Assembly (NCBI GenBank): GCA_029339195.1
Contig: JAPTJF010000365.1
Span: forward strand, 1-64,000
DNA from: Micractinium sp. NFX-FRZ
Lineage: Eukaryota; Chlorophyta; Trebouxiophyceae; Chlorellales; Chlorellaceae
DNA: 64,000 nucleotides
Reading direction: 5' to 3'
The notes below the pieces were generated by a model, which saw only the letters and a program-made list of their open reading frames with translations, was not told the origin of the DNA and searched no databases. Below, one piece after another: positions 4,001-62,000 of this stretch; the first letter of the stretch is position 1, and the number at the start of each line of letters is the position of its first letter. A program made the translations under genes and the position numbers.

Positions 4001-7000
4001 GGACCCCGCCAGCGGGGAGATCTCGGTCAACGGCGGCCTCATGGTGCCCTCAGACGCCTACTCCTGCTCAAGCGCGGGAGTGATGCGCAGCGCAACCATG
4101 TGGCTGGTGAGCTCACAGCACACAAGTCATCACTGTTTCTGATTGCGGCGCAATTCTGGGTCTGTGGAGCCGGCAGGACGAGACTGGGGCTGTGCAAAGG
4201 GAAAGGCTGTGATGGGTGATGTGGCATGTAGCAAAGGTGTCGGTGGTGAGGTAGCGGGAGGGACAGTGACATGCCTGAGCAGCGGGTGCTGTGCACCCAG
4301 CCACCCACCTGCACGCAAGCCACCAGTGCCTCTCTGCGTCAGGCAGGCACGAATGTCAGGGGCGTGGCGCGCCCCTCCTGCTTGCCTCCTGCCCCACGCA
4401 CCTGCACCACACCATCGCCGTCATCCCCCCTACCCCTCAGTCACCCATTATGCCCGTCTCCAACGCCATGTTAATATCCCCTGGATCTCGACTTGCAGGG
4501 CATCGCCGGTGGCTTCATCATGGTTGTCCTCATGTGCCTGGTGAGATGGTGTAATGACCAGGCGTCCAGTTTGTTCCGGGGCAGTTTTGGTTGGCAGGAG
4601 GTAGCCCGGCAGGGGGGCCATGCCTTTGGTGGTCACGCGGGTGTGCCTGGGGAGCGGGGAGGCCAAGGAGCTGCAAGGGTGGCATGCATGTGTGTGTGTC
4701 GGCGGCCGGCAGGTGCAGCGGCTGGGCGTCGGCAGCACCCGTTCAGGCAGCGCTTGGGCAGTGACTGACCCCTGCGCCTGGGGCAGGCGGCAGTCTTCGC
4801 TTGCCGACCGTCTGCACTCACCGTCCGCCTCCACCCTCCCCACCACCCTGGGCCACCCACCGCGTATTTGCCTGCAGGACGTCAAGGGCGCCATCGCCAT
4901 CGGCATCCTCTTTGTCACCTTCATCTCATGGTGAGCGCACCCTGGCTGGTCGTGTACTGATCAGCATTGTCTACCGGCAGTACTGTATGCTGCACGGCGA
5001 GGGCATCCTGATGCCGCCACATGCTGCGCAACCCGCGGAAACGAGTCGGCTCCAGCCCAGGCTTCGCCCGCAGGATCACCCGCCTCACCCGGCCACCTGG
5101 CACGCTATGTAGAGAAGCTTGGCGGCTGCCTACCCAGTGCCTGCTCACCCTGAACGCCTTGCCAGCGCTGCTGTGCTTGCTGTGCCTCTTGCAGGATCCC
5201 GTCCTCTGGCAACCTGGCGCGGTACATCGAGAAGCCGTATGGCTGCCAGCCCGACGGCATCAACTCCGACTCTGGCGAATCCTGCATCTACACACCCGAG
5301 ATGCGGCGATGGGACTTCTTCAAAAAGGTGTAGATGCCTGCTGAGGTGCCTCTTGGGCTTCCACCCTTTGCAGCTCACCGCTGCCTCTAGGCCTGGCTTG
5401 CCGTGCTGTTAGCTGAGCGCAGCAAACATCTTGCTTGCTTGCTTGCTTGCTAGCTGAGCGCAGCAAACATCTTGCTTGCTTGCTTGCTAGCTGAGCGGCG
5501 CAGCACAAACCTGCCCCGCCCTGCGTGCTGGCTTCCTCACTCCCCTCCCTTGGCCCCTTGCCTGCACGCTCCTGCCCTCCCTCCTCCCCGCGTCAACACA
5601 GGTGGTGGCCGTGCCCGACACCAGCCTGACGGCCGGCAAGTTTTCGTTCTCGGGCTTCAAGCACGGCGACCTGTGGGTGGCGCTCATCACCTTCCTCTGT
5701 GAGCCTCCTCAGCCAGCCAGCCAGCCCCGGGACTGGCCACATGCACTGGAACAACGCTGTGTCAAGGCTGGCTGGTCACTGCTTGCGCAACGTGCATTTG
5801 ACGCCGTCGTGGTCAGGCTGGTCACAGCTGGCATGGAAGTGGAGTGGGCACAGGCACTCGGGGGGAGCATGCGGATGCCGCAGCTGGGCTGCTGCACCCC
5901 TGAGCCCAGCGTGCTCAGCAGGTCCAAGCCTGCTTGGCCCCGAGCCGAACCAGCCCAGGCCAGCTCCCTTTCCAATAATTATTCTGTGACCCTCTCCCCG
6001 CTCACCCTCTCCCCGCTCTCTTGGCTCCCCTCGCCCTGCAGACGTCGACTTCCTGGACGCAACCAGCACCCTCTTCACCATGGTGGGTTCAGTTGGAGGA
6101 CCGGGCATGCTGAGATCCCGCCGAGCAAGCGGCAGGCAGACCAGTGGCGGACACAACACTGCAGTGCACTCCTGGCCTCTCTGCTCAACCTTGCAACCTT
6201 GGCGCACTACCGCCAACTTGCTTCACGCCTTCGTCCCGCGCACATCAGCCGCCTCAACGCCCTCCCTCCTCTCTCCCCCTGTCCCCCTGCCCCTACCCCT
6301 CCCCACCCCCACGCAGGCCAACTACCTCAGCATGTTCATCCCCGGCTTTGTGGACACCAAGCGCAAGCGCTTCCCGCGCCAGATGCAAGCCTTCCTGTGC
6401 GACGGTGCCTCCATTTCAGGTGAGCGGGCTGATCCTCAGCTGCCACGAGCTGCTGCCTGGTGTGCCGAGGGTGTGCGTGGTTGCGACGGTGCCGCCATCT
6501 CGACTGGCTCGGCGGGCAGGCCTGGGGTTGAGGCGGGAGGCAGTCTTTGAGCCGGCGCAGGGAGCAGGGCGCCGCTGCCGAGTGCCCAGCCCGGCCCGCC
6601 TCTGCGCTTGCGCCACCCGCATGATACACGGCCATGCCCTTCTGTGTACTCCCTCCCCCCACATCCCCCCGCCCACCCCGCTCCCACTGTCCCCCGCAGT
6701 CGGCGCCTGCCTGGGCCTGTCCCCTCTGACCGCCGCCATCGAGTCTGCCTCTGGCATCCGTGAGGGGGCGCGCACCGGCCTGGCCGCCCTCACCATCGGC
6801 TTCTGCTTCTTCTGCTCCCTCTTCTTCGCCCCCCTGCTGGCCACGGTGCCGCCCTACGCCACGGGGCCCGCCATCATCCTGGTCGGCGCGCTCATGGTGC
6901 GTGCCGGGTGGGTGGCGGGTGACATGGGATGCAGCAGCAAGTGGCAGGGGTTTGTTCGGCGGGGAGGCGGGGGAGGTTGGAGGGAGAGGGGGCGCCAGGG

Positions 7001-9387: not shown

Positions 9388-11308
9388 ATGGGACTCGACG
9401 GTAAGAAGGTCGAGACGGCAAGAGAAGCCGCCGCCGCCGCCGCTGGGCCTGCTGGGAAGCCTGCCCCCGCCTGCCCCCGCCCGGGCCGCCCGGGCCGCCC
9501 GGGCCGCCCGGACCGCCGCCGCCGCTGCCACTGTCGCTCTTGTTCCGCTGGCATGCAGGTGGCACCATCATCAGCCGCTCCGATGTGCTGCGTGGCCAGT
9601 GCTGGGAGATGAACCAGGCAGACACCAGCCGCAGCACGCGGGGCGGCGCGGTGCGGGGGACGCACAAGCGCAAGAAGCTGGATGACCGCACTTCAAAGTG
9701 AGCGAGTGGGCAGTGCAGCAGTTAAGGGGCCAAACGCCCGAAAGTTGGCACCTGACTTGGTGGCTGCCCGCCCGCAGATGCTCAGCTTGCACTGTGAGCC
9801 ACCAAACGGTGGGTGCTTGCTCTCCTTTTGGGGCCGCAAGAGTGCACGTCCAGAGCCTGGGGCGGGGTGCCCCACCACCTCCCGCCCCCCCCGCCTGCCT
9901 AGAATGCTCGCTTCCCCTGCCCCGCCAACTCTCCCCCACCCCACGCTGCCCACGTGCAGGGTCACTCGCTGGAGCACGTGTGCGTTGAGCGGCGAGCCGC
10001 TGGCAGCCCCTGTGGTGGCCTGCTTCCTGGGTCGCCTGTACAACAAGGTGGGGGGCAGATGGGGTGGCAGCTGCATGTGCTGTGTGTACTGGTGAGTTGC
10101 AAGCTCTCAGGGCGCCTGTACAACAAGGCGGGGGGCGGGCAGCAGCCGGGGCGGCTGGCTGCGCTTGGGTGGCCTGCTTTGGGGGGGCGTCTGCACAGTA
10201 AGGCGAGGCGGGGCGGTGGCCCCACATGCGCCAAACAGGCAGCATGCAGGGCTAGGCAGCGGGGGCAGCGCGGGCCTGTTTGTACCGCGCATTGCACGAG
10301 GGCATCCAGGCACGCAGCCTCCCTCCCCTGCAGCCCCCTCAGCCTGCCTCACCTCCCGGGCCGCCCCGCCTAGTGCCTCGCCCCACTGCCGTCCCCGCCC
10401 CCTGCCCCGGCCCCCGCTGCTCCCCCTGCCCCAGTCGGCGGTGCTGGAGCTGCTGCTGGCGCGGGCGGGGCACTTTGGCGATGAGGCCGCTGAGCACCGC
10501 TACCTGAACCAGCTGCGCACGGCGGGCGACGCCTACGACCACATCGCCTCCATCAAGTGAGAAGCGAGGGCAGCTGTTTTTTTTTTTTTTTTGTATGAAA
10601 CCAAGCTCCAGGGGGTCATGGGGTTAGTAAATCATGGCATCTGCAAGTCAATTGTTAAATTCCAGGGCAGTCATGGGAGAGGCGGGAAACTGCTGTGGTG
10701 TGCAAGCCCAGAAGCCCAGGTTGGGGGGGGGAAGGCTTGGCTGGCACAGGAAGCGGTCTCAAACCCCTTGCCTGGCTCTTCACAACGACTCAACCACCTG
10801 CTGCCCCCACACCTCCCGCTGCTGCAGGGATGTGTTCATGCTGCAACTCAGCCCCGCCACGGCGGCCGCCGCCGCGCCGGCGGTGACCACTGCTGCCGAC
10901 GGCACCGCCGACGCCGAGCTGCCGGCCCCCTACACCTGCCCGCTCACCGCCCTGCGCTGCGACCGGCACCCCTTTGCCGCACTGGCGGGGTGCGGGCATG
11001 TGTTCAGTGAGAGGGCGCTAAAGGAGACCGCCTCGGACAGCAGCTGCCCCACCTGCGGAGCTTCCTTCTTACAAGAGCTGGACGTTGTGCCGCTCCTGCC
11101 GGGAGAAGAGCAGCTGGGACGGCTGCATGCGCTGCTGCCGGAGCGGCGGAAGCAGGCGAAGCAGCAGAAGCAGCAGCACAAGCGGGCAAAGCGGAAGCGG
11201 GAGCAGGGGGAGGAGCAGCAGGCAGCGGGCGCGCAGCAGCAGCAGCAGCAGCAGCGGCAGGCAGGCGGCAAGGGGCAGCAGCACAACCAGCAGCCAGACA
11301 CAAGCTAG
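9388..11308 (+). CDS. RTF2: RTF2, replication termination factor 2 family
   Basis: A nuclear protein of the Rtf2/C20orf43 family. It acts in replication-fork pausing and termination in fission yeast, and in replisome remodelling and splicing elsewhere. Five exons: 9388-9400, 9559-9697, 9960-10047, 10435-10556, 10828-11308, giving 280 residues. Landmarks: MGLDGGTI at the N-terminus, the first zinc-finger-like region RWSTCALSGEPLAAPVVAC with FLGRLYNK, then YTCPLTALRC and the RING-like GCGHVFSERALKE...SCPTCG. The tail is rich in Lys, Arg and Gln, with a long polar repeat after LLPERRKQAK. Exon 1 is only 13 bases, but its splice is fixed by the conserved MGxDGGT start. All introns are GT-AG. Intron 3 contains echoes of exon 3 and intron 4 a T16 run. 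Confidence 0.92.
10017..10205 (+). repeat. Junction echo of RTF2 exon 3, three copies
   Basis: The exon 3 end, GGTCGCCTGTACAACAAG plus GTGGGGGGC, is repeated in intron 3 at about 10108-10137 (offset 80 bp) and, more decayed, at 10171-10205 (GGCCTGCTTTGGG... CTGCACAGTAAGG). The third copy still aligns with the exon stretch GGCCTGCTTCCTGGGTCGCC. Confidence 0.85.
10577..10592. repeat. T16 homopolymer
   Basis: Sixteen T in a row inside RTF2 intron 4, followed by a locally AT-richer stretch to about 10675. This is out of character for the surrounding GC-rich DNA and could be the poly(A) tail of a retrosequence inserted on the minus strand. Confidence 0.95.
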
Positions 11309-19500: not shown

Positions 19501-20651
19501 ATGCTGCTGTTGAGCGCGCGGCACGCCTCTGCCGCCGACAGTGCCTTGTGCACCCCCACGGTGGCCTCCCTGCGTGACGGGGGTGGGTGAGCACAAAAGG
19601 GGGGCCAGCAGTTGGCGGTTGGCAGTGCTGTTGGGCAGCGAGCGGGGGCGCATGGTGGCTGGGCGGCTGGGCGGCAGGGCTCAGTCTTCCCTCTGCTATG
19701 GACCATGTGTCAAGGGGCGGTCCACACGCTGCTGTAGACCTGTTATCTCAAGGGACACTCCCTTCCCCATCACCTGTGCATGCCAGGTGGCGAGTGCTGC
19801 ACCGCTCCCGCCTGCCCACCTCAAATGCTCCCAGTCTCACGCTCCTAAAACTAGCAATGTGTCGCCCATAGCTCTGGTGGACAGCCACCGCGCTCCCCTC
19901 ATCTGTGCACGACCTGGCGCCTGATGGGCAGCCCCGCCCCTCCCCTCCCCTCCCCTCGCTGCTCCTCCCCTAACCTCTCCCTCACCTGTGTATGACCTGG
20001 CGGTGTATATTGGACAGCTCCACTGTGTCCTTGTCCACGATGCCCAGCCGCCCCACGCCCGCCGCCGCCAGGTAGAGAGCGGCGGGGGAGCCCAGCCCTC
20101 CGGCGCCGACGATGAGCACGGAGCCACGGCAGAGGCGGGCTTGGGCTGCAGGCGGGGCGGGCGGGCGTGGTGGGGCAGTGGGGTGAGGGTTAAGAGGCAG
20201 GGCAGAGCTGTGGGGAGGCTGGGAGATTGGGAGGAGGAGGGGGCTGGGGGGTGGGGCACTGGGGACTGCCGCCGGGCACCCCCTGGCTCGGGCGAGGGCC
20301 ACCCCCACAGGGGGCCCACCCTCCCGGCCAGGGGCCCACAGAGCGCCACAGCAGCGCACCTTGCACGCCAAAGCTGTGCAGCACAATCTGGCGGCTGTAG
20401 CGAGCAATCTGGTCCTTGCTCAGCCCGTGCTGCAGGCCGTCCCACGAGGGTGTGGCGTGGCTGTTGGCGGCGGAGCAGCCGTTGGCGGCGGCACCGCTGA
20501 CGGCAGCGGCGGCGGCGGGTGGCTCCTCTTGTCCTGGCTGCCCGGCGCCTGATGTTGCTTTCAATCGCTCCAGTTTAGCCTGAAGCTGCGCATTCTCGGC
20601 CCTGAGCCGCTGCAGCTCCTCCTCCACGCCAGGGACAGGTCTCGACGACAT
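16505..20651 (-). CDS. MOCS3/UBA4/CNX5: adenylyltransferase and sulfurtransferase
   Basis: E1-like enzyme that adenylates the C-terminal glycine of MoaD/URM1-type carriers and loads sulfur on it, for molybdopterin synthesis and tRNA thiolation in the cytosol. Ten exons (minus): 20360-20651, 19986-20145, 19457-19569, 19111-19180, 18695-18786, 18370-18479, 17920-18029, 17458-17628, 17041-17114, 16505-16830; 505 residues. Visible: an N-terminal coiled coil ([19 protein letters not shown]), [10 protein letters not shown], the ATP loop [47 protein letters not shown], paired zinc motifs CYRC and CMACG, the thioester-region [11 protein letters not shown], then a rhodanese domain ([17 protein letters not shown]) with active-site CRRGND. 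The rhodanese domain carries a Gln/Ala-rich insert. Exon 6 ends at a GC donor (CAG/gcaagc). The ATG at 20651 is the first in-frame ATG; the frame upstream has none I trust. Confidence 0.95.
17831..17897. repeat. CAGCA/CGCAG low-complexity repeat
   Basis: Imperfect alternation of GCGCAGC and ACAGCAC pentamers in MOCS3 intron 7. A similar tract occurs at 41100-41172 in the amine oxidase gene. Confidence 0.85.
18035..18090. repeat. Degenerate interstitial telomere-like repeat
   Basis: The plus strand reads GGGTTTAAGGGGGGTTTTGG, then GGTCTTAGGG, TTTTAGGG, TAGGG and TTTACCC: imperfect units of the plant/Chlorella telomere repeat TTTAGGG. It lies in MOCS3 intron 6, directly next to the 3' splice site, so its C-rich strand forms the sequence in front of the acceptor. 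Confidence 0.85.
19894..19925 (-). repeat. Junction echo of MOCS3 exon 2 donor
   Basis: CTCATCTGTGCACGACCTGG on the plus strand echoes the exon 2 end, CTCACCTGTGTATGACCTGG (19981 onward), at offset 83 bp within intron 2. A weaker third copy begins near 19768 (TCACCTGTGCATGCC). Confidence 0.72.
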
Positions 20652-25804: not shown

Positions 25805-30973
<5,169 letters not shown>

Positions 30974-31340: not shown

Positions 31341-34300
31341 ATGCCCTCCGGCGAGGCCACAAGTGTGGCAACCGCCGCTGCCACTGCCGCCACTGCCGCC
31401 GCCGCCGCCATGGCAACGCAGCAGCAGACAGCGGCGCCACCGCCCGCCCCCTCGGCTGCCAGCCTGTCCAAGCTTTGGGACAGCTCCAAGTGTGTAGTGG
31501 GTTAGGACGTGTGTGAGGGCGGCTGCGAGGCTGGGCCGGGGCAGCACGGCTTGTTCAGCTGCCATCGGCCGGGCGCAGCGCTCCCGCCGCGTGCCCTTGC
31601 GCCTGCCTTGCAGCCATCCCTGCCTGCTCCCACCGCCGCAGCGTGCAGCGCCAGCAGCGGAACCATGGAACCGCTCGCTCACCAGTCCACTGCCTGTCTT
31701 TGCTGCTAACTCCATCCCAGCACTGCTCTGCCCCGCTGTTGCTTTCCTGTGCAGGATGTTCGTTGCTGGCGGGTCGGCGGGCGCCGTGGCACGCACAGCC
31801 ACCGCCCCGCTGGACAGAATCAAGCTCCTCTTCCAGGTTGGCAGCTTGCCATGCTCCTTTTGTCTCGATTTTGTTTCCAAAAAGCGTTGATCTGAACAGT
31901 TTGCCTCGTGTGGCTGAGGCCCGCCATGTACCGATTGTGTTGTTCTGTGTGAATATTGGTGCTGTTTGCAACATGCTGTCGCGGCGCCATATCCCTATAT
32001 CCCCATGTGTCTGTCAATGTTGCGTGAGTGTTAACAGCTTGCATCGTTCATGCTGACGCATGCGTGTTGGCCTCATTACCGCAGTTGCTACAGCCGCCCG
32101 CCTGCCAATGCATGTCGTCACACACCCACAGCCGCCCGCCCCCCACCCCCGCGGTGCTGCAGGGTGCCAGCGGTGCCCCACTGCAAGCGCCAGCACCACC
32201 CCCGCCTCTCACCCCGCGCTACCACCACTTTTCCGTCACGCATTCATCCAGCCGTTCCCCGCCGCCCGCTGTGCCTGCTGCAGGTGCAAGCGGTGCCCAG
32301 CGCGGGGACCTGCACCACTCGGTCTCTCACTGAGCTATCTCTGGCGCCCGCTGTGCCTGCTGCTGCAGGTGCAAGCCGTGCCCAGCGCGGGGACCAGCGC
32401 CACAGCTTACACAGGGGTGGGGCAGGCGGCGCGCAAGATTTTTGCAGAGGAGGGGGTGCGGGCCTTCTGGAAGGGCAACGGGCTCAACATCATCCGGTGA
32501 GGCCCGGGGAGGGAGGGAGGGCAGCAGGGCAGGCCAGCAATGCAGTGCGGTGCAGCGCAGGCAGGGGGGCAGCAGGGGCCCAGCATTGGAGGCGCACGAC
32601 TGCTGCTGCGGGGCACAAGTGGTGGGGAGGCAAGGAAGGGATGCTGCGGGGCAGAAGGGCTGGAGGGGGGAAGGAGCGGTGCAAGACCTCAGCGCAGTGC
32701 AGCAGCACAGAATGGGTTGGGGGCTGGCGGGTGGGCGCGCCTGTGACGCACAGCAGCAGCAGCAGCAGCAGCCTTGAGCTCAAAGTGTTGCGGCAGGCGC
32801 GGGCCAGGAAGAGCACGTGGCTGGCGGCGCAGGCAGATGAAGCCCGCTCGCCTGTCGCTGCACCCCACCCCACCTGATCGTCCCCTCCTTCTGAGCAAGC
32901 CCGCTCCTCTCCCTGCACCCCACCACGCCGCCTATCCTCATTCTTGTCCCCGCACCCAACCCACCCCTCTTCACCTGCCTGCCTGTCCTGCCTGCCCTTT
33001 GTGCCGGGCCGGCTCCTCTCCTCCCACCCCCACCTCGCCTACCCTGCCTGCCCCACTTTCTTCTCCCCTCCTTCCTCTGTGCCACCCCGCAGCATCTTCC
33101 CCTACTCCGCCGCCCAGCTGTCCGCCAACGACCAGTACAAGCGCATCTTTGCGGATGAGCACGGCGAGCTGACGGTGCCCAAGCGGCTGCTGTCGGGCGC
33201 GTGCGCGGGCATGACGGCCACCGCGCTCACGCACCCGCTGGACACGATGCGGCTGCGGCTGGCGCTGCCAAACCACGGATACAGGGGTGGGTGGGGCTGG
33301 GGCGGGGCGGGAGGAGGGCGGGACCAGAGGCGGGTTGGGTGCCGCCGGTGCTGGGACAGAGCATGCCGGTTTGCAGCGTGGGTCGGCGGGCAGGCGGCAC
33401 AGCCCGGCAGTGGCTGCCTGGCTCCCACTGCTCCCAGCTTCCCGCCCTTGCTTCACCCCCACCGCCGTACCCCCTCCCCGCCCCGACACACGCGTACCTT
33501 GTGCCGGTTCTCACCCTCTCTGCCTCACCACCGCCCCCTCCTCTCCTAGGCGTGACGGCTTAGTGGCGGTCATGCACACGGAGGTAGCGCGTGCTCTTCA
33601 CAAGTGTCTATCCCTGCCTCACCATCCTTCCCCTCCCTGCTCTCTCTGCCTGGCCCCAGGCATGGCCGACGGCTTTGTGACGGTCATACGCAGCGAGGGC
33701 ATCCTGGCGCTGTACAAGGGGCTCATCCCCACCCTGGTGGGCATTGCCCCCTACGCCGCCCTCAACTTTGCCTCCTACGACCTGCTAAAGCGATACGTGT
33801 ACGACGCCGGGGACAAGTGAGTTGGCTGTATTGGGTTGCAAGGTTGGGGAGGAATGAGTGAGGGGCGTGTGAGGTGGTGGTCATGCCGCCATCTGCTTGG
33901 CTCAAATGTGTGTTTACAGTGCGAGTGAGAAGCGAGTGCCAGGGTGAGGTGTGTTGCTTGTTGGCGAGGCAGCGGGGGTTGCAGGGAGTCATCCTGGGGC
34001 CTGCCCGAGAGGTGTGTGCATGGCGGTGGGGCCAGCAAGTATGGCGGTGGTGCGGGCATGCCCCCCAGTGCAGTGCAGCTTACGACGCCAGCCCCCACCG
34101 AACCCAGGAGCCAGCTGGTTTGCACACGCAGGGCATCTGCCGCTGCCACCCGGCCCCTACCTGTTGCCCGCCCCGTCCGCGCGCCTACTTGCCCACTGCC
34201 GTTGCCTCTACTCTCCTGCTGCTGCTCGCCCCGCCATCTGACCCTCCGCCCTCCCTGCCCCTGCCCCTCCTTCTCGTCCCGCTTGATTCCGCTCCCCCAG

Positions 34301-37530: not shown

Positions 37531-40500
37531 TCACTCCAGGCTCCACTCTGTGTCCTCCGGGTCTCCCAGGTCGGGTGTGCACGTCTCAAAGTCGAATTTG
37601 TCCACAATGTCCATTGTGGCCAGAGCTGCAGTTGTTGGTGGGTGGGTGGAGAGAAGGAGGGGAAGGAGGGGCAGGCACATCCTTGGGAAATGAAGGGAAG
37701 TGGCACCCAGACCGCTGAGCCCAGCAGTGCAAAACGTTTGCCTGCCGTGGCGGCAGCCCTGGCAGCGGCAGCAGTGGCAGCGGCAGCGGGCCGTCTCACA
37801 GTCGAGGTAGTTCCAGGGCTTGATGGTGAGCATGGTGCCATGGTTGGTGATCAGCGGCACGTCCTCGGAGCGGGGCACGTGCTGCGGGGGCGGGGCAGGG
37901 GGTGCGGGGGCGGTACGGTGTTGCAGGGAAGAGGGCAGGGGCGGGGCGCCTGCAGAGGCCGCGCTGTGTGTGCGACGCCCGTACAGCACACAGACACGGT
38001 GCGCCCGCTTGCCCACGTCATTTCGTTTAGCTATGCACAGCCTCCTCAGGTTGACAGCACCCGCTGACAGTGCCCGCCACTTGCCTATCCCAAAGGCACT
38101 TCTGCCCGCGCTGCTCTTTTATGCGACCCCGCCATCCCCCGCCAAGTCCCCGCCCTCCCTCGTGCCCTCAACACTGCGCCAGCTGGCACCCACCTGCACC
38201 CCCATGGCCACCCACAGCACCAGATCTTTCCCCACGGTGCCCTCCCCATCCACGTAATCCTTCATGCTGAACAGGGGCGACTGCGGGCAGGGGGGCAACG
38301 ACCAGAAGCTGGGCGTGAGGTGGCGGGTGTGCAGGCGGGGGGGGAAGGCGGCCCAGCAAGCAAGGTGGGGCGCGGTCGTGACCACGTTGCCACATGGGTC
38401 ACAGGCACCTTCCCGATCCCCAAAACCTGAAACGTATGCCCCGCCCAGCAGCACATGGCTTCGCTCGCATGCCCCACGCCCACTCGCATGTCGACTGGCC
38501 CTCCTATGCTCCCTCTCCCCCGCCTTCTGGCACCGCCCCCCAGCCACCCGCTCACCCCGCTGCTGTGGTAGTCGTAGATGGAGTAGTGACCACGTTCCTC
38601 CTCATCCTTGTGCACAGTGGCCCTGCACCAGGGTGGGCAGAACTTCCCTTTAATGCTGATGCAGGGTGGGCGTGCCGGATGGGCAGGAATGTCTTGAGAA
38701 GTGCCGTGCCGAACAGGCGAGCAGGCTGAGCGTTAGGGAGGCAGTGGACGTTTTGGGCCAGGGCACGGGTGGGCACAGAGCTGCCTGCAGCCCGTGTGGC
38801 TGCATCCACGCACGCATGTGCACAACGAGCTGGTTGGGCGGCGCTCGCACTGTGCAGGGGCAAAGCAGCGGGGTGGGGCGGCAGTCAGCCAGGCAGGCAG
38901 GCAGGCAGCAACCTCACCAGATGTGGTTGGTGGTCCAGTGCATCGCCTTGGCAATGGGGTGGTCCTCTGCGGGAGGGGGCGGGGCGATGTGTTGCGGGAC
39001 GGGCTGGCGGTTTGGGATGCTGGGATGCAATGGCAATAATGGCACACCACACACTGTGCAGCATTAGATAGCACGATGCAGCATTATTCATACATGCAGG
39101 GGAGGCGGTGCGCACGAAGCAGCGGCCAGCAGATGCCTGTATCGCGCAGCAAGGCGGTGCCGCGCTACGGGTGTCCTCTCTCAGACCCGCCCCCGGAGCC
39201 CCACATGCATGCACCCACGCACCGGGCAGCAGCTGCGATGTGGTGTAGCCGACAACCACGGCGTAGGAGCGAGGCACGCCCCACTTGTTGGTGCCTGCAC
39301 ACGCCAGGGAAGGTGGGGCACGCGTGTGTTGGTTGGCAGGGAGTGGGAATAGGAGCGGGTGGGAGAGGCCACCGTCTGGCCTCGCACAGCAGTGCTGGCA
39401 GAGCACGAGCTGCATGCGGCCAAGACGTGCTTGCCACACACAGTCACAGTCAGGTCGGCACCACTCACTGTTGATTGCCTGGACGGCGTAGATGCTGGGC
39501 ACCTGCACGCAGGCGAGGCGGTGGCGAGAACGCAAGCAGACGGTTGACACATGGTGGTGGCAGCACTCGAGCAAAATGCCTCTCTCAAGGTTCAATCGAA
39601 TAGCAGGCCTCTGCCCACCTTGTGGTTGCGGGGGGATTCCTAGACTCCTTCTGCACCACTTCCTCCCCCCTTCCCCTCTTTCTCCCAATCCATGATGCAT
39701 GCAACGAGTTTCCGGTCAAACCTAGCATGCTGGCCTCATTTTGTATTCGAATGAGAAGCCGGCCCCCTTCTGTGTGCACCACCTCTCCCTCCTTCCTTTC
39801 CTCCCCTTGGCGAGGTCACGTGTATCCACCCCCAAGCAGCCTGCCTACCTTGTAGTCGAATGAGAAGCCGGCCTCCTTCTGCAGCACCTCTTCCTTCATG
39901 TACTTGAACCCCTGGGAGTAGCCCCAGGCGGGGGCCGTCACGCCCGCATCCTCGTAGCTACCAAACTGCAGGCGCACGGCGCAGGGCGCGCAGACGGCAG
40001 GGTGGCCGAGGGTGGGGCAGGGGGCAGTGGTGGGTGTGGCGTGCCCAAGGGTGGGGGTTCCGCCGGCGGCTGCAGGCCACCAAGCCTTTTGCGGCGGCAC
40101 TGCATCCAGCGGGAGCTTCTGTCATCCGTCCTCCCGCCCTCCCACCTTCATAGACTTTTTGACCATCTGGTTGGAGGCGCCCATCACATCCAAATCGATC
40201 TGCGGTGGGGGCAGTGTTGCGAGATGTGCGGGAAGTCAAAAACCAAATCACCAGATCGGCCAAAGTGCGGCACGCAAGCTTGAGGAGGCGGCAGCTGAGC
40301 TGGCAGAACGGGCGCGTGTGCACAGCAAGCAGGGCGAGCAGCGGTGGTGGCGTGGCAACACATGTGACAGGTCAGCGTGCCCACTCACCTTCCAGAGGCC
40401 GATGTGGTCGTGAATCACGCCAGCGGTCCACTGCTGCACGCGCGGCATGTAGGGCTTGTCGGGCGCGCTGAGGCCGTGCTCTGCGGGGCGCAGCGGGGGC

Positions 40501-42056
40501 AGGCAGGGGGCAGCAGCGCACAGTAGAGGCGTCAGTCACGAGCCCAGGCTGCACATGAAGGGGCTGCTGCTGTCACACCCTGCGCCCGCTGCCACGCCAC
40601 GCGCATGATGTGCATGGCAGCCGTCCTACCTGTCCCACACTAGCTAACACCTGCCCCCACCCGCCCCCGCCTCCTCACTTGGGTCGTAGTAAGCTGTGGA
40701 CATGTAGCCCCCCATGCGGATGTCGACCTCGATGGACCCGTCCAAACGGAAGCGGTAGGATTGGATGTAATCATAGTTGCCAGGAGTTGTCACCATTCTG
40801 ACCTGCAGGCATCAGGGGGGGATGTATGGGTGGGTGGAGAATGCGCAGCGGCAAGCGGCACACACAAGGGGCGCCGGCGTTGGCAGCGCAGCTCAACACA
40901 GCGTGCAGCCCAGCACAGCATGCACGGTGCTGTTACATGTTGGGGAGCGGCATGCAGCAAGGCGTCAAGGAGAAAGGAAAGTAAGGGGTGCAGCCAGGCG
41001 TGGCTGCTGGCCCGGGGCAGTCGGTGGCGCCGCAGACCGCCACACCTGTTGACGTCAACCAAGCAGACACCCACCCTCACAGCCCTTGAGGCACATCACA
41101 CGTCAGCTGCGCAGCATACAGCACAGCACGGCGCAGGGCAGCTCAGCACGAGCAGCACAGCGCAGCGCAGCGGGGGAGACCAGCGGGCACCCACCACAAA
41201 GTCGGTGGAGCGGATGCCCGTGTTGAATGGCTCCTCTGGTGAGCCGTGGGTGTGGCGCCAGTCGGAGGTGGCCAGGTCGTCCTCGAAGAAGCACACGCCG
41301 CTGCAAGGCCGCACAACAGCAGTTGTGAGGGGGTGTGAGAGCAGAGTGTGCCAGACGGGGAGCGGTTGCAGGGCAGTCGGCGATGGCCAGGCGTCTTAGC
41401 CAAGCACACATCGCTGGGCATGCGCTGGGCGGTGAGACACTTGTTTGCTTTGCGTGCGGATTTGTTCCGCCGCAGTGTATGTTCAATGGTAGGGGACGCT
41501 GTGGCGGGCGCCGCGAGCAGGCGCAGGAGTGACACGCCAGCGGCGCCGCGCCCACGGGGCGCGCCCACACGCCTTTCTGAACCAGCACAAAGGGGTGGCC
41601 ACTGCCACTGCAGCCCCCCTGCTCACCGCGGGATGTGGGCCACGGTCCCGCCATAATCCATGTAAGAGATGCCCATGTAGGCGGCACCCTCGGGGCAGTC
41701 CACGCCCTCACTGCAGGGGGGGAGGGGGCGGGGGGAGACCAGGAGGCACAGGGTGAGGGAGAGGGCTACGTGTGGGCTCTGCCGCCGTCGTGGCGCCGTC
41801 TCGCTTGCTGCGTACGTAGGCATGTGTGGCTCATCCCACGCGCCAGGGCAGTGTATTTGCTGGTAGCGCATGCGCTGGCGCCACGGCCCGCTGGGTGGCA
41901 CGCAAACCCCACCACCAAGGCCAGGGTGCCCGCTCGCTCCGCCCGCCAGCAGTAGCAGCAAGCCTGGGGTGCCCCAACTCCCGGTTTCGTGGACGTCCCC
42001 ACTTCAGCAATGGCGAAAGGCTGCGCCAGCAAGCAAGGAAGCAAGGAAGCAAGCAC

Positions 42057-42091
<35 letters not shown>

Positions 42092-42144
42092 CGCAAGCAA
42101 GCAAGGAAGCAAGCAAGGAAGCAAGCAAGCAAGCAAGCACGCAC

Positions 42145-42221
<77 letters not shown>

Positions 42222-45200
42222 GAAGCAAGCAAGCAAGCAAGAAGCCCACCGCAGGTTGTAGCTCTCCGAGCCGATGCCGTAGATGGAGTCAAAGTAGATG
42301 ACCTGGCCAGGGGTGGAGTAGCCTGCGGGGGCGCGGGGGCGCGGTTGAGGAAGTGGAGGAGCAGCATGGGTAAGCGTGGCTTCATCGGAGCGGGTGGGTG
42401 GGCGTGCTGGGGCGAGGCAGGGCAGGGTGTGCGCTCAACGCTGAGGGCCCCAACGCTCTCCCCGCCCAGGTCTGCACCAACGCAGGGCAGCTTGCCGGCC
42501 TATCGCTCACCGCTGCAAAAGTGGACGCCAATGCAGCCCGCCCACCGGCGCTCCAGCGCCAGCCGTGCACAGACCCCCTGCCAGCCACCTCCCTACCAGT
42601 GACCCACCCCACTAGTCATCACAGAGCGCAGCCGGGCGGCCACGCACCGGCATAATTGGCATACAGTTCTTCTAGTGCCAGCTCGTACACGATGCGCTTG
42701 GCCATGAAGGAGATGTCGAAAAACTGGAAGCCGGTGTACGGATCTACAGTCACATGCCCCTTCCACCCCATCCAGCTGCGGGGCGGGGATGGCAGTGCAC
42801 AGGGGTATCGCGATGAGTGCACGCGGCAGGCGGGCAAGGGAGGGGGAGGCATGGTGCAGGCGGGGCTGGCTCTTGGGATTGGGAGGTGGTGGGCGACTGC
42901 AGGGCTGCCGTGGCTCTGCCCGCCTGCCATGCCAACCTACGCCAAGCCAAGCCAAGCCAACCCAGCCAGCGCCCCTCACTGGGGCCCCCATCCCGACACA
43001 CATGTTTATATTTTTACACACCTGAAGGAGCGCCCCGTCTCAGACTTGGTGTCTGCCAGTGCAAAGCGGTGGCCCTCTGGGAAGATGGTGCGGGGCCCCG
43101 CCTTCTTGCCAGACTCCTTCACGCGGGGCCCGCTCACACGGTCGGTGCGCGCCCACTGCAGGCGGGGTGGAGGCGGGGGGAGGGGTGGCAGGCAGGGGCG
43201 GGCGTGTGCATTCTGCCTTGGAGGCAAGGGGGTGGGGAGGGACCACGCAGGGCAGGTGCAGGCTCCTACTGCCCTGCAACATAAGTTGCGCACTCAGCCA
43301 ACCCAGGAGCCGCCGGCGCACCGAGCCGTCGTAGCCCTTCTTGCCCCTGCAGAGAGCCAGGACAGGGGGCAGGGACGCCTGTTTGTGGCAGCAGGGAGCT
43401 CGCCCAACTGGGCAAGTGCCCACTGCCAGTGTGCACTGTTTCAGTTGGTTTGCAAACTGCCGCATGCACCTGTGCCTGTTGGTGTGCTGCTTGCACATGT
43501 GCCTGGGCGCAGCAGCGCTGCTGTGGGCCAGCGAACGAGCTGGCGAGCAGGCGTACGGCAGTGGGCCGGCGGCCGTTGCGCTGGCAGGAAACAGGTGCAG
43601 GGAGGGCCACGCACCAGTCAGAATCGCAGATCTTCAGTTTGCCGGATTTGTAGGCGGTTAGGAAGGCCTGGGCGGTAGGGAAGGTGCCCCTGCAGGCAGG
43701 CAAGCGCGAGGGAAGGCTGTGTGGGTGGCGCCACAACGCATGGCTGGAGTGGAAGGCACGTTGCCTGCCGGTTGCTAGTGCGCGCTGCACATGTGAAGCA
43801 GGTGCTGTACCCTGATGCTGCAGCCATCGTACTGCCCGCCTTGCCCGCTGGCTGCTGGGCCCGGGGGTTCCTCAGGGTGTGTGGTTGTGGTGCACGTGAA
43901 TCAAGGAGCGCCCTAGCTATGGGAACACAGCGCGCCAGACCCCACAGGCGTGCTCACTGGTTGCAGTAGATGAAGTCAAAGGTGAACCAGTCGTCCACGC
44001 TGGGCGCGCTGTGGTCGAGGCGCATGAAGAGAGGGAGCGGATGCTGGTTGAATTCATTTCCAGAGTCCTTGCCCCGCGGCTTGAACCAAAACTGGATGTT
44101 GCTGATGCTGCAGCGCAGTCGGGGAGACAAAGGGGCACACGGCGGGGTGAGGGCAGCAGCGGTGAGGTTGCACCACCACACACAGTGTGCCGTGCACAGC
44201 GTGCTGTGCTCCCTGCTTAGTACAGCTGCAGCATGCCCACCAGCCTGCGTATCCATCCATCTCGCCCACCAGCAACGGTGAGCCTTGCACACCCTTGCCA
44301 GCTGAAGCTCTCCCCCTGAGATGCAGACCAGCCCGTCACATCCCCGCCTACTTACTCAAGGCCCTCCCTCCCTCCCTCCCTCCCTCCTCCCTCCTTGAAG
44401 CTGCCCCGCCGCACCGCTCCCTGCTCACCGCGTCTTGCCGGTCTCGAGCAGGGACGCCTGTGACCACCAGGTGTACCAGTCGTACCCACACTCTTCGGCG
44501 GGGCCATAGCACTTGTCGGAGCCTGGAGGAGAGGAGAGGCAGGGTGTGGCGGCAAGGGAGGTGGGAGGACGGCGCAGGGCGGAGCGTGGCAGCCGGCATC
44601 TGCCATGCACACACCAGTGCACCGCTCAGCATTGCGCAAGCAGGCGTGCCTCGGCAGCATCCCTACACACCTGCCCATCCACCCGAGGAAAACTTCCACA
44701 TTCAGGCCCGCATCCATTCCCGGGCCCCAGCACGTGCTCAAGAGCGGTAAGCACCGTGACGGACAAACTGCTGAGCACAGCTCCACCGCACCCACCGGTC
44801 ATGTTGTAGAACACTTCCTTGAGCAGGTCGGTGGCCTCGCCAATGGGGCCATCCATCCTGCACGGCACAGCAGGGAGCACAGCGGGGAGCGCAGCGGGCA
44901 CAGCAGGCAGAGAAGGTGAGCGGGTAGGCCACGCGTGACACGATAGATTGCACCTGTGCACAGGACCGCAACTGCGTGCTGCGATACGGCCCAACCACTA
45001 GCCCCCTGCCCCCAGCCCACAGCGTGGGCCCCCCCACGCCTCTCTCGCTCCCAGCTTGCCAACTGGCCGACATCTGCCTCACCAGCCATACTCGGGGCCG
45101 TCCTCTGGCTTCTTGATGTACGGCACCTGCCCAGGCTTGAACAGCTCGGTTGCCGTGGCACTAGAGCGCAGCGGCAGGGGGCCAACCTGCGCGGGGGGGC

Positions 45201-55815: not shown

Positions 55816-55844
55816 GCGCAGGGTGTGCGCTCTGCAAGCAGGGG

Positions 55845-56033
55845 CGGCCCTAGGCGGAGCAAGGCTGTTGCCATCGCAATCAGACTACTGTTGATGTCGC
55901 AGCCGCTGCAGCAGACATGCCCGAATAGAAGTTTTGGCGCCTTCCACCGTGGCATGTTTGATTTGAGCTCTGGGGCACCCCTGTTTGCCGTGTTACAATT
56001 TGAACAATCCCAGATCGCTTCACACTTTCAAGG
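55845..56033. promoter_or_regulatory. Bidirectional promoter copy 2 with ARPC1 start fragment
   Basis: Duplicate of 53531-53717. On the minus strand an ATG at 55874 opens MATALLRLGPP, matching MATSVLRLGQL of ARPC1, but homology ends after about 10 codons, so it is a severed ARPC1 5' end. On the plus strand it drives the intact SMPD4 gene. Confidence 0.85.
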
Positions 56034-59000
56034 ATGGCAGCCTGGGACGCCGCTACGCCGGCTGGCCTATGCAGCATCCTTGACAACCCCAAGTGGCCGG
56101 TGTCCAAGGCCTGTCAGGCAGTGGAGGATTGCGTGCTGGCCAACAGGTGGGTCTCATGGCGTCTCGCTGCACTGCCCGCTCGAACGCCATCGCTGCTGCT
56201 GGCTGCTACTGCGGTGCCCTTCCTTCCTTCAAGCAGCGGGTTAATAGCTAAGACACATGCATTGCATGCAGCTGTCGCAGCCGCCAGCATGTGTCACCAG
56301 TGCTGCCGCCGCCACCGCCGCCTGTGCCGCCATGCCACGGCCAAACCGTCGCATCCGCCTCCCTCTCCCTGCAGCGACAACTTGCGCGGCTTCTTTGAGC
56401 AGTGCTTCCCCTCGCTGCTGAAGCGCCTGTTTGGCTACGATGGCACCAGCTGGCTCAACCTGGTGGCGCAGGTGCGGGCAGGGGGCAGGAGCGGGGGTGT
56501 CGCTGTGTCGGCTGGTGCCATGCGTGCCCTCTTCCATTGATTTTTTCCACGCAGGCTCTGTGTATCCGAGCTTCACACAGCTCTGGCAGCTGAGCTTTCC
56601 AGTGCAGTAGACCCTACTGCTGGCCGCCCTTGCCAGCCGCCGTGCTGCACGCAGTACTCTGCTTGGCTCCCCACTTGTGTCTCTCTGTAAAGCCAATCTT
56701 CATGACTCGCCCGCTCCTACAACCGCAGCCCTTCATCGAAGCGGATGCCCGCCCTGCTCTAACAGGTGGTCCCCCTTGCTGTTCACTCACACCCTACCCG
56801 CCCTCTGCCCGCCCCCCACCCACTCTCATCCAGAGTCCCAAGGAGGCGGATGCCCGCGCCCTGCTCAAGCTGCTGTCCCCCACGGGCGTGCTCTTCACAG
56901 CCATGTACTCTGCCGACGCAGACGGCTCCACCCAGTTCTTCTTCCCAAAGGAGCGCCTGCCGACGCACACGCAGGTGGGCGGGTGGGGGAGGGGAGGGTC
57001 AGCAAGGTGCGGGGGGCGGCATGGCGAGTGGCGCGTCTGCAAAGGGCGGGGCAGGCGGCGAGGGCGGCGTGCCGGCAGTCGACGGGCTGCCCCTGCTCTC
57101 ACAGCACAGCGTGCCCTGATGCTCTGTGCTGCTGCTCGCCTCACCTCACCCCTCACTGCACCTGTTCTGCCTTCCCTGCCCCTCCCACGCTCCTCCTGCC
57201 CTCAAGCGCAGATGCTGCTGGCGGCGCCTGCGGGCCGCGCCGAGCTGGAGCGCTGGCCGCAGTACGGGCGCGGCGCCCTGGTGACGGACGCCTCGGGGCG
57301 CTGCCACGTCAAGCTGGGCGTGTTCCAGTTCTTCCTCTGCTGGTTTGCCTTCTACGTGATCAAGGGGGATGGGGGGACGGGCCCTGGAGACTCGCAGCTG
57401 CGCCCGCAGGCGGCCGGGCTCGGCAGCTCCGTACGCAAGGTGAGGGGGGGGGTCCACCCAGCAATATACGTATGGACACAAGTCTATTGGATGGTGGGCA
57501 TGGTGGGCGGCGTGGTGGGCCGCACCAAGTGGTGGTGCTGTGGGCCTTCCAGTAGGATGCTGCTGGAGCGAGCGAGGCCCAGACCAAGGTGCACAGGTGG
57601 CAGCTCCTGCTGCTGTCATCTCGCGCCCCGCCCCCCGCTGGTGGCCCTGAGCTGCCACCCGGCCTCCTCAAAGTCCCGCTGCCTGCCTCCATGCCTCTCT
57701 CCCCACCCGCAGGCCGCCGACGCGCTGCACCTGATGCGGGGGCGGGAGAGCGATGCGTGGCGGCACCCCTACCTGGCCGCCCTGCGCCAGCTCCTCATGG
57801 AAATGCTGCCCCGCCCCTCCACAGCAGCGCAGCTCAGCTCCACCGCCATGCCCGCCAAAGGTGGGTGGGGCGTGCTGTCCTTGGCTGGAATGCATGCCGA
57901 AGCGGGGTGGGGGAGGTAGCGGGGTGGGGGCGTGGCCACCAGGGGAGCCTTCATTAGTGCTGGCACTGGGAAGGAGGCCAGGTGGTGCAGAGGCTGCGGT
58001 ACCGGGGATGTGCGGTGACCGTGTGCGTTCCAGCCAGTGCCTTGAAAAGTCTTGTCCGGCCCATCCCTGCACGCTACTCCTCACGCACCGCAGCCTTGCT
58101 CTGCCCCATGCCACCTGCTGCTGCGGGGGTGCGGAAGGAGCGGCTGCGCCTGCTGCCCCTGCTCTGTACCTCTTGACCACCCCCATCCGTTTCCTTATCC
58201 GCCGTCCCGTCCTGCCCTGCCCCTCTCCCGCCCCGCCGCAGTGGGCGCCAGCCCCTTCTTCCGCACCCCCACCTCCTCCGCCAAGCGCCAGGCCGACGGC
58301 GTCACCCGGGGAGCCACCTTCTACAGCGTGCTGCTCGAGTTTTGGGTGACAGATGGGGATGAGCCCGTGCCGATGGTGGCCACGGCGGCGCAGGCGGCGG
58401 CGGCGCCGGGGGGGCTGCCCATGTGGTGAGCCGGCTTTGAAGGAAAGGGTTGGGAGGAAGGTTGGGGGCACAGAGCTGGCTGGCGGGCGGGCCATTGCTG
58501 GTTAGTGGCGCATTGTCTGCGCGTCTCTGTGTGGTGTGCTTAACCGCTGTTGATGCCACGCCCCCTGGCCTGGCCCCCCATACCTGCCTGCACGCCAGCA
58601 AGTGTGCATGCCGACATTCCCGCTACCCGCAGCTGCTCCTCCCCTCCGCCATGGCGCTCCCCATGCCCTCAGGACCCCCTCACCCCCGCCTCACCTCCCG
58701 CCCCTCCTGCCCTGCCTCCCCCCCTGGCCTGTGCAGGAGCACGACGTACGAGCCACCCTCTGAGGATCTGCTAGAGGGGCTCACCGAGCTGGTCAAGTAC
58801 GTGACGGTGGCGGGCGGCAGCGGCAGCAAGCTGCAGCCAGCGCAGGGCACGACGCCGTGGTTGCCCATGACCCAGCTGCACACGCTGCTGCCGCCAGCGC
58901 TGGCGGCGCAGCGCGCTACGGCAGCGGGCAGCGGCGGCGGTGCAGTGGGCGGCGCGGCGGCGGTGCCATCCATCCCCGCGGGCCCGGCGCGGCTGGGTGC

Positions 59001-62000
59001 AGCGGCGCAGCCCCAGGCGCAAGCCTTTGCCCGCCGCCTGTACCGCTTCTTCCGCCGCGCCATCACACTCTGGCCGGAGCAGCGCAGCATCAAGCCGCTG
59101 CTGCGCTGCCTGCTGGCCTACCTGGCGCCCTGGCGTGCCACCGGCGCCGCGCCCTCCCTGCTGCCGGGCGCAGGCGCCGGAGCGCCGGGCCATTCTGCCC
59201 TGGCCTCCCACCTCACAGCACAAGTGACCGACCTGGTGCACCGCGTGCACTGGGCAGATGGGGGCAAGGCTGATGGCTCTGACAGGTAGCGAGGGCTGGC
59301 TGCTGTGCCTGTCATGCTGGCTGTGCCAGCAGGGCAGCGTGCCGGCAGGGCTGCTCTGCATGCAAGCGCGCGGTGCATGCTGCAAGGCGCTGGAGCACCG
59401 TGGTGGCGGCGTGCGGTGGGCCCCCCTGTGACGGCTGCGCTGGCTCGACTGCCCCGCTGCCTGGCCCCACCTGCTGGCCCCTGGATGCCAACCTCGCCAC
59501 GCCTTGCACCCTCCCGCTGCAGCTACGGCCCCCAGTGGGAGGCGCACGTCCTTTCCAACCTCCCCTTCTACCTCAACCTGCTGCCGCTCTTCCTGGAGGC
59601 ATCCGTGCCACGCGTGGAGGTGCGGGGCGGCAGCTGGGAAACACACCTCACCGAGTGGCTGGCAGAGGGGGCAGGGAGGCGGGAGCCGCAGTGTTGCTGG
59701 TCAGACGGGCACGCAGGCGGTGCAGCGCGATGTGTGCATGGGCCCCAGCCCTTCTGCCGTTCCCTCATGCCCTCCTGCCTCCCCCTCCCCCGTCCGAGGC
59801 CTTCCTTGCTCATGACGGTGCGTGGCGAGTCTGCTGGGTGAGCGTTCCACTTGTCAAAACACCACCTCTCAAACCCCTGCCACCACCTTTCGTGCTGCTC
59901 AATGTCAACCGACCGCAGGTGCGCGGCGAGTCTGCTGCCCAGGACTTGGTGAGCGTGCTGGGCGTGCTGGAGGCGGCGCCCGAGCTGCGCGCCCTCCTGC
60001 AGCAGGTGGAGCGGGAGTTCAACAAGTTTGCCGGTGAGCAAGCAGGCTGCTGCCACTGTTGCGCTGCAAAGTGCACACACTGTCGTCAGTGTGCACGGCA
60101 GCCCACTGCATGCAGCGGCCTTGCACTGCTCTCAGGCTGAGCAAGAGCGAGTAGCAGTGGGATGGCGGGGTTGCAGGGGTTCCTCCTGGGCCTGCTTTGC
60201 CCACCTCCTGCGCCTGGGCCTTCACCGCGTTCCGCAGCATGCCTAGAGCCTATGGTTGAGGTGGGAGGGAGTTTCTCGGGACCTTTGGGGTTGACGGACG
60301 CATCACACTCGTACCGGCAGCGAAGAGGAGGAGGTTGGGTAGAACAAGGAGTGGGGGGCTGGGGCTAATCCCTGGCCTCAGGTCGCCCACCACCATGCCC
60401 TCGTGTGCGCCCCTTCCCCGAGCTGCAGCCTCCCAACCGCGGCGCGCCGACGGCACGTACGCCGAGCTGCTGCCCTGGCTGATGGAGCAGCAGCAGGACT
60501 GGGAGGTGGCGGCCACAGCCAACTGCGCGGGGGACACGCCGCTGGTGCGGGTGAGTGGGGGTGCAAGGAAGAAGGGTGCGTTGCCCAAGCCGCTGGCATG
60601 TGTGGCAGGTGTTAGCGCGCCGACACCAGCGCCAGGACTGCGCTGCATTCAGCCAGCAGAGCGGCCCCCTCACAAGCCACCCCTTGCAGGCCTCCGCTGG
60701 CTTGATGTGGGGGATGCAGGCCACCACAACTCCCTCCGCCGGCCTTGCATGCCCTTTCCACTCACGCTCCTCACCCACCCCGCCCCACCCCACCCCGCCA
60801 ACCCACTGCAGGCCTCCCCTGGCTTCACTCTGTTCACCACCGCCCAGGGTGCGGCCGCCTACGTGGCACGCGACCTGCTGGACATATCATCGCACATCTT
60901 CAAGCCAGAGGTGGGCGACTGGCCACGCCTGTCGCTTGTGTGTGCTGGCAGCCAGAATGGGGGAGGGCTGGGGGCTGGGGGTGGCACGCAAACTGCAGGG
61001 CATCACTCTTTCAATTCCAAACTGAGGCGCTTGCTTGCGGTGTGGACGGTCAAGTGGGATTGTAGCACGCTGGGCTGGCTGGCTGGCCACATTCGCTCAT
61101 GGTTTGCCAGCTGCTAGGCGGAGCCTGCTTGCCCCGGGCAAGGCTGCGCTGAGCTCTGGTGTTGGTGCGTGCCATGGGACGGCTGAGCTCCCGCTTCCTT
61201 CTCTTTTTCGGGTGTGCAGGTGCAGCGCCGGTTGAAGCAGTGCCTGGAGACGAGCCTGCCGCTGGCGTCGCTTCCCGCAGCGGCGGCGGATGCAGGGCGG
61301 GGCACGGAGGAGGCACGGTATGACGAGGCGGTGCCGGTGAGCGGAGGAAAAGTACTGTTGGTTGCTGCCTGCGGTTAGCTCTGGCGCCTGCCTGCCTGCT
61401 CCTTCGCCCCTCCTCTCATGTTTGCTGAGGTTTGCACTTGCAGCAGCTCGCCCATGGGGTAAACAGCGGCGCAGCCTGCCGGCCCCGCATGCTGCCCTCA
61501 CCGACCCGGCCACCCCCACCAACCCACCACCGCCTGCCCTTGGCCCCGTTCACCGCCCCTCCCCGCACGCAGCGGCTGCCCAAGAGCAGCTGGCGGGATG
61601 TGCGCTACCGCGGCGACCCCCTCATGCGCCCCATTGCCTCGTTTGAAATCGGCCTGCTGGTGCGCCTTCTGGTGGCGCTCAGCCTGCGGCTGAACGCGGC
61701 GCTGGGGCTGAGCGGCCCGGGGCGTGGCGGCGGCGGCGAGGGGGAGGGAGAGGAGCCTCCCGAGCACAGGCTGCAGGTGAGGGTGAGGCCTGCAGCTGAC
61801 TCCAAACGTCTGCGGATGAACGTGTTGGATGGGGTTGGTTAATGTGGCTGGAGACAGGCAGGGGAGCGGGCGGGTGCGGTCGCGGCGTGGGAGTGGGCGG
61901 GTGTGGAGGGGCGGGTGCAGGCGCGGCGCTTGGGTGGGGCGAGCCAGCGGCAGGCGGCGACAGCTGGGACTGCCATGCAGCCTGCATGGAGAGCACCTCA

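Follow-up and report, generated by a model that had tools for sequence, protein, structure and literature searches.

Intron growth is usually ascribed to transposons or to unspecified slippage. We describe here short copies of exon edges, termed echoes, in the introns of a green alga, beginning with a stretch of 64,000 nucleotides (positions 1 to 64,000 of contig JAPTJF010000365.1, assembly GCA_029339195.1) that is called the window throughout. An earlier note on the window, made from its letters alone, had claimed that in introns of seven genes one exon edge recurs inside the intron with its splice site, as a degenerate copy displaced by an offset of 77-122 bp, and had suggested short tandem duplications across the junctions as the cause. 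By sequence the alga belongs to the Chlorellaceae, near Micractinium; the ATP sulfurylase of the window shares 91% identity with the Micractinium tetrahymenae protein and 90% with the M. conductrix protein, followed by those of Chlorella species.

A boundary-crossing duplication is described for a potato RdRp gene in PMC4974935, where a tandem duplication over an intron-exon boundary created a new intron and an 83-bp intron duplication in the same gene is also mentioned. The likeness lies in the unit, which joins the 3′ portion of an intron to the beginning of the exon that follows, with splice signals inherited by the copy. The potato case as given there is one new intron in one gene, whereas in the alga about a tenth of the tested introns bear a decayed copy, an existing intron is longer, and no new intron was seen. 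The intron gain known as Rogers (AGGT) likewise involves tandem duplication with AG/GT-like motifs at both copies; there the offset equals the length of the intron that is born, whereas the algal offsets are about 100 bp in introns of about 355 bp.

New introns in Daphnia, in the portion of PMC4202315 that treats them, show direct repeats of exon ends, and passive intron growth through staggered double-strand breaks is proposed. Repeats of exon ends within introns are thus common to both cases, but those of Daphnia measure 4-12 bp. The algal ones measure 20-60 bp and sit at a favoured distance of about 100 bp from their source, in introns with a median of 355 bp. Introners, as presented in parts of PMC9860276, are families of similar elements, some with target duplications of 3-9 bp, which occur mainly in lineages that evolve fast, green algae among them. 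They too add intron sequence genome-wide; the algal spacers—the sequences flanked by the two repeats—share no family in spacer-against-spacer comparison or in a search of the genome with two of them, and the repeats are about 20-60 bp rather than 3-9 bp. Minisatellite-type tandem repeats are also local direct repeats, but those of the alga have periods of about 13-50 bp and adjacent copies lying mostly within introns or within exons, whereas echoes lie at 70-130 bp and at junctions.

In the genome paper on Auxenochlorella (PMC12636532), the passages that deal with introns report means of 179 bp for that alga and 206 bp for Chlorella vulgaris and make no mention of such a pattern. Full-text searches of an open-access library, from which most subscription journals are missing, turned up no description of a comparable pattern on a genome-wide scale.

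Frequency of echoes

Approximately a tenth of the introns contain a degraded copy of a neighbouring exon edge at a distance of some 100 bp. The observation is strong, real and reproducible and holds genome-wide, as judged from a 344-kb sample made up of the 64-kb window and 28 further 10-kb stretches of the genome (66 Mb in 838 contigs, with the window on contig 365). Genes were predicted with a purpose-written, self-trained semi-Markov gene finder, trained without the models of the earlier note, which returned 84 gene models and 627 introns with a median length of 242 bp and a strong predicted splice consensus (CAG/GTGAG at donors, TGCAG/G at acceptors). GC-AG introns are common, a GC start being present in 39 of the 590 predicted introns that have two flanking exons. 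Exclusion of introns outside 100-600 bp in length or with a flanking exon below 30 bp left 496 for testing, from which several of the youngest arrays are lost because the gene finder breaks arrays into false exons.

For each junction a query of 40 exon bases and 12 intron bases was compared with the interior of its own intron at a cut-off score of 30, and length-matched introns from other loci served as controls (2480 comparisons per edge type). Copies were found for 23 of 496 donor edges and 33 of 496 acceptor edges, as against 1 of 2480 in each control, so that both kinds of junction are involved, as had been claimed. Inverted edges reached the same cut-off in 0/496 and 2/496 cases (2/992 in total, against 56/992 for direct edges), and another intron of the same gene, used as the target, gave 1/487 and 1/487. 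The echo copies lie in direct orientation and close to their source, as is expected for tandem duplication spanning a junction.

The pattern withstood the refuting conditions set by the earlier note: interior pieces of exons matched their own intron in 2/236 and 1/245 cases, and the offsets form a peak; pieces from intron interiors matched in 12/452. That copies lie always on the intron side, as the earlier note stated, follows in part from the design of the search; with queries of exon bases only, matches were obtained in the intron on the edge's own side in 17/442 and 26/452 cases and in the intron on the far side of the exon in 0/347 and 0/347. Echoes are present in 39 of the 397 introns outside the window, and the pattern therefore recurs where the earlier note had not looked.

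Chance, low complexity or errors in the gene models would be a natural suspicion in a genome of 66% GC with numerous simple repeats. It is refuted by all of the control sets, together with a protein-level check of the exon edges of ATP sulfurylase, whose 12-exon model is internally free of gaps against six green-algal orthologues from about residue 77 onward, and we attach practically no weight to it. When one set of local shuffles was put through a k-mer scan for local repeats, nothing matched.

Intron length and offsets

Echo introns are longer than the others by one offset. Their median length is 355 bp (n=51) and that of the others 240 bp (n=445; Mann-Whitney p 1.6e-14); the means are 357 and 251 bp, and the excess of 106 bp (standard error 12) is close to the mean offset of 109 bp, so that each echo marks the gain of about one unit. 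With the offset subtracted, the 5th, 25th, 50th, 75th and 95th percentiles of echo intron length are 120, 208, 250, 307 and 413 bp, as compared with 147, 189, 240, 297 and 408 bp for other introns. Loci with an echo are thus lengthened by the offset, in a comparison of introns within one genome, not with an ancestor, and the suggestion of an intron-growth process is borne out. The two of the 56 echoes with offsets below 60 bp were excluded from the length, profile and flank tests, and one further echo of the remaining 54 failed the length conditions of the flank test (n=53).

The offsets lie at 70-130 bp in 45 of the 56 echoes, for which uniform placement predicts 22%. The full range is wider than the 77-122 bp given in the earlier note, with acceptors up to 212 bp and donors at 34, 48 and 194 bp. 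Below 60 bp there are the first two of these donors and no acceptors, a dearth that would reflect selection against two nearby splice sites, as far as such small numbers allow. An apparently sharp lower limit near 60 bp in a BLASTN self-search was dropped, since blastn discards near-diagonal matches, and was replaced by a k-mer scan able to see short lags; that scan still shows a dip between the minisatellite lags and the 80-130 peak. Offset and exon length are uncorrelated (0.04), and exons that begin with GT are not enriched among acceptor echoes (3/33, against 64/496).

Birth of whole introns of the AGGT type, in which the end of the upstream exon recurs at the end of the intron, was rejected on inspection of the seven best cases. 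Seven of 514 cases reached a score of 32 (controls 0), and inspection of these seven best showed six to be predicted introns of 60-83 bp with overlapping test windows and the other, L024 6235, to be an echo called as an exon; six further cases scored 24-31, where controls give 3.2 at 24 or above.

Proposed origin and decay of the copies

We propose that short tandem duplications across splice junctions lengthen introns and that the copied piece of exon then decays as noncoding DNA. We give this reading a probability of roughly 0.6; it is the best single explanation, yet its fit is strained and does not match every number. Stretches mostly of 75-130 bp, lying over an exon-intron junction, would have been duplicated in tandem many times in the lineage. 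Splicing would keep the outermost junction, and the extra unit would be absorbed, leaving the intron one unit longer and the message unchanged. The real exon would stay under selection, whereas the exon piece in the copy and the intron piece in each of its two copies would be free to drift, so that the exon piece would remain recognisable longest, as an echo that ends in a splice site. Offsets under about 60 bp would be scarce through selection, as splice sites too close together would compete, and larger units would follow a falling size spectrum. What the earlier note had proposed as a mechanism is supported in part, by the growth by one offset, by a 95-bp tandem array over an acceptor at 29053-29375 of the window and by the noncoding decay of the copies; it fares less well in that the intron part of the unit is mostly unrecognisable and that intron-only repeats of like size fall short of the number expected under random placement (7, against 19.5).

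Mismatches between copy and exon are spread almost evenly over the three codon positions (42/331, 45/326 and 59/326), and the copy therefore drifts much like noncoding DNA. The same figures bear on the view that echoes are selected functional elements, such as decoy or recursive splice sites or alternative exons. The splice dinucleotide is indeed often kept in the copies (GT or GC in 9/17, AG in 13/20), and offsets show a weak excess of multiples of three (23:14:14 for remainders 0, 1 and 2), such that some echo sites may have been used in frame for a time. The dinucleotides are, however, kept no better than the adjacent exon bases, which together with the even mismatches makes function very unlikely. 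No clear sign of active silencing at echo splice sites was seen in the pooled profile of 17 donors (of 21) and 20 acceptors (of 33).

Arrays with at least three copies of an exon edge at even spacing were observed at L024:5380-5630 (93-94 bp), L021:8860-9140 (109-113 bp), L020:1-440 (about 118-123 bp) and L027:4440-4860 (113-115 bp); in those of L021 and L024 the exon parts are far more alike than the spacers. Whole-unit homology, covering exon and intron part together, is present in the 29053-29375 array and between the L027 units (near 4460-4850). A 117-bp tandem repeat at L005:2957-3285 lies inside a predicted exon and is apparently coding, with a unit of echo-like size. The arrays and the spread of identities agree with the description of the process as recurrent; its description as old holds in a relative sense only, the comparison being within one genome.

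Several sources of the spacer were tried and rejected. Sequence past the copy fails to match the partner exon (mean score 12.0, controls 11.3), which speaks against a copy made from spliced RNA; other introns of the same gene are no better (4/49 rank in the top; mean 23.8 against 24.1), and an inverted copy scores 17.8 against 18.4. The spacer retains some residual likeness to the remainder of its own intron (17.9 against 16.3, with scores of at least 24 in 4/49 against 0). A repeat family as the source was rejected on the spacer comparison and the genome search with two spacers. Insertion of a transposable element or introner, with the exon edge as target-site duplication, would account for direct repeats flanking a spacer (median 68 bp), and when the score is low, spacers exceed shuffled controls slightly in mutual likeness, with 43 of 1421 comparisons (shuffled 25) at score 22 and 9 (shuffled 3) at 26. 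At score 30 there are 3, as compared with 1 for shuffled spacers, and C-rich tracts make up the best matches, and there is therefore no spacer family in the sample; neither spacer searched genome-wide had a second copy, and the repeats are 20-60 bp and not 3-9 bp long. We consider such insertion extremely improbable.

Homology past the splice site and simulations

Pooled identity between copy and source is 0.78-0.88 across the first 20 exon bases and falls to the control level by 40-50 bases into the exon. For comparison, duplication was simulated as tandem units of 75-130 bp over a junction, with the exon constrained and the rest drifting, followed by identical detection. When the units have aged by 0.2-0.4 substitutions per site, in introns with 0.5 indels per substitution, the simulations give an exon identity of 0.82-0.83, a flank identity of 0.30-0.34 and flank scores of 15-18; the observed values for donors and acceptors are 0.829 and 0.847, 0.307 and 0.39 (standard error 0.04), and 14.3 and 17.6, respectively. 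Because simulation with its detection bias comes close to the observed profile, the sharp edge of homology at the splice site is largely a product of detection through the exon part. Acceptors also keep a small residual excess at -30 to -20 (0.415, control 0.324).

A number of results nevertheless weigh against the duplication reading. Apart from the splice consensus, homology on the intron side is near the control level within about 6 bp, donor identity at +6 to +20 being 0.29-0.33 against 0.25-0.29 in controls, and homology past the splice site is retained in only 15 of 53 echoes (rank p <= 0.05). A few echoes match their exon almost perfectly for 28-41 bp while homology in the flank is weak or absent (28054-28081 of the window and L022 4981-5021). 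Full-length young units are few—the 29053-29375 array, L027, an intron-only case in L013 and the exonic one in L005—in gene models that lose such arrays. Indel rate, unit sizes, exon share and synonymous rate in the simulations are the analyst's choices, and when ages run from zero upward the simulated flank identity is 0.54-0.75, unlike that observed, so that most duplications would have to be middle-aged and few recent. Simulated detection is 15-21% at the fitted ages with indel-rich introns, and 56 echoes at 992 junctions therefore call for duplication of about 27-39% of junctions, whereas judged by the excess in length only 3% of junctions would have hidden events (95% interval -20 to 26%).

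The classes of local repeat add to these difficulties. All local repeats were scanned under a stricter complexity filter and classed afterwards by gene model. At lags of 60-135 bp there are 50 junction pairs (25.8 by random placement) and 7 intron-only pairs (19.5), a ratio of 50:7 where simulation at the best-fitting ages gives about 3-6 to 1. Junction pairs number 3 (6.9) and intron-only pairs 20 (11.7) at 20-60 bp; at 135-300 bp the two classes number 22 (14.8) and 5 (6.8). The 60-135 peak therefore belongs to junctions, and the intron-only repeats form a falling size spectrum.

The nearly abrupt end of homology is what would be expected if some mechanism that recognises the splice junction placed copies of 20-60 bp of exon edge in the intron: from an RNA template, by template switching at the CAG or GTGAG motif, or as captured filler during fill-in of long staggered breaks. 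High exon scores with low flank scores in introns 27800, 39503 and L022 4756 (flank 16, 11 and 15; 27800 is borderline, with a rank p of 0.05) and the excess of junction pairs over intron-only pairs also speak for it. As a main reading it stands behind tandem duplication, which in the simulations with detection bias largely reproduces the stop; those simulations do not remove it. The flank homology of the 15 echoes tells against it, as do copies that fail to continue into the partner exon, unlike a spliced-RNA template, and the lack of a second copy for the two spacers searched in the genome. A bare insertion of 30 bp, moreover, would not add a full offset to the length of the intron. On balance we think junction-bounded copying quite unlikely.

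Homogenisation would reconcile some of the same facts in another way: the duplications would be old and would have spanned the junction, and the exon part would have been kept similar by gene conversion or template switching between nearby copies, such that the echo looks younger than the duplication. It explains high exon identity beside flanks near the control level, as in the L022 intron 4756 (98% over 41 bp, flank score 15, control mean 14.1), and it accounts for both the exact extra length and the weak residual flank homology. The array in L021, with three copies that share a 56-bp core (up to 98%) and diverged spacers, also agrees with it. If the events are middle-aged homogenisation is unnecessary, and conversion tracts might be expected to lower the identity near the end of the copy that borders the junction, where no such drop is seen; we regard homogenisation as unlikely. 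A broader statement, that a copying process limited by the splice junction places exon edges in their own introns or that ongoing conversion keeps them matched to the exon, and that junctions are thus recurrent sites of local DNA copying from which introns of this lineage grow at their ends in steps of about 100 bp, seems to us possible but doubtful.

Echoes in the window

Each of the 14 cases named in the earlier note was tested by comparing the exon edge with 235 bp on its intron side and with 300 control pieces of 235 bp from introns of other loci. All are real: their best scores are 27-72, the best of the 300 controls scored 22-32, and in no case did any of the 300 equal the case itself. 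The edges 5195, 10047 and 19986 were recovered by the independent gene finder, and its edges for the remaining cases, given with each copy below, reproduce the offsets claimed, with two exceptions: 114 rather than 110 for carrier exon 5, and 78 rather than 77 for ATP sulfurylase exon 4. In the screen, 14 of the 99 introns of the window have an echo, four of them new. Four of the named cases are outside these 14. Permease exon 12 scores too low for the cut-off; in the other three, carrier exon 3 and ATP sulfurylase exons 4 and 5, the gene finder breaks up the intron.

The window opens with the apparent 3′ end of what we take, from its protein letters, to be a histone H4 gene (1-105). In the permease gene (forward strand; Pfam PF00860), exon 12 (5195..5327, acceptor edge 5195) has a copy of its start with AG at 5070..5118 (offset 121, score 27). 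Two new echoes lie in the same gene: a copy of an exon start (edge 2271) at 2134..2165 in the intron 1957-2270 (offset 125, score 34), and a copy of an exon end (edge 6419) at 6482..6501 in the intron 6420-6699 (offset 84, score 30). RTF2 (forward strand; PF04641) has a copy of the end of exon 3 (9960..10047, donor edge 10047) with its donor at 10110..10136 (offset 80); this copy beats its 300 controls, and the second, weaker one that had been claimed, at 10185-10203 (offset about 155), is seen by eye only. On the reverse strand, the end of exon 2 of a MOCS3-like gene (true donor edge 19986) is copied at 19896..19919 (offset 83).

The ATP sulfurylase gene, also on the reverse strand, has the following echoes: the start of its last exon (edge 25890) at 26003..26025, in the intron 25891-26370 (offset 144, score 31; new); the end of exon 10 (donor edge 26827) at 26712..26736 (offset 113); the start of exon 9 with TGCAG (acceptor edge 27340) at 27420..27460 (offset 108); and the end of exon 7 (donor edge 28159) at 28054..28081 (offset 105), with 96% identity over 28 bp. 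The 95-bp array at 29053..29375, with 3.4 units, begins 37 bp inside exon 5 (28965-29089, edge 29089) and is a full-length duplication over the acceptor. The end of exon 4 with its donor (donor edge 29778) recurs at 29696..29726 (offset 77-78), and that of exon 3 (donor edge 30236) at 30137..30167, in the intron 29923-30235 (offset 96; new).

In the carrier gene (forward strand; PF00153), the start of exon 3 with its acceptor (edge 32369) is copied at 32263..32318 (offset 82-85) and the start of exon 5 (edge 33660) at 33554..33584 (offset 114). The copper amine oxidase gene (reverse strand; PF01179) has a copy of an exon end (donor edge 39849; exon 21 of the earlier note) at 39741..39790 (offset 109); an (AGCA)n array of about 55 units lies within the same gene at 42028-42245. 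The SMPD4-like gene (forward strand), with a weak match to PF14724 (E 3.6e-6), has copies of the starts of exon 3 (edge 56834) at 56738..56775 (offset 105), exon 9 (edge 59919) at 59817..59836 (offset 101) and, with TGCAG, exon 11 (edge 60812) at 60679..60703 (offset 122). The Pfam domains of the permease, RTF2, carrier and copper amine oxidase are those expected.

Significance

The echoes would be a new, genome-wide form of a known type of event, duplication across an intron boundary. With about a tenth of the tested introns bearing the trace of one added unit at a known end, it becomes possible to measure, in a compact genome, the rate of intron growth, its size limits and its tolerance by splicing. 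Offsets below 60 bp are nearly absent, which may give an in vivo figure for the smallest distance between two splice-site copies that compete. Were the junction-bounded reading true, the echoes would point to a hitherto unknown link between splicing and the copying of DNA.

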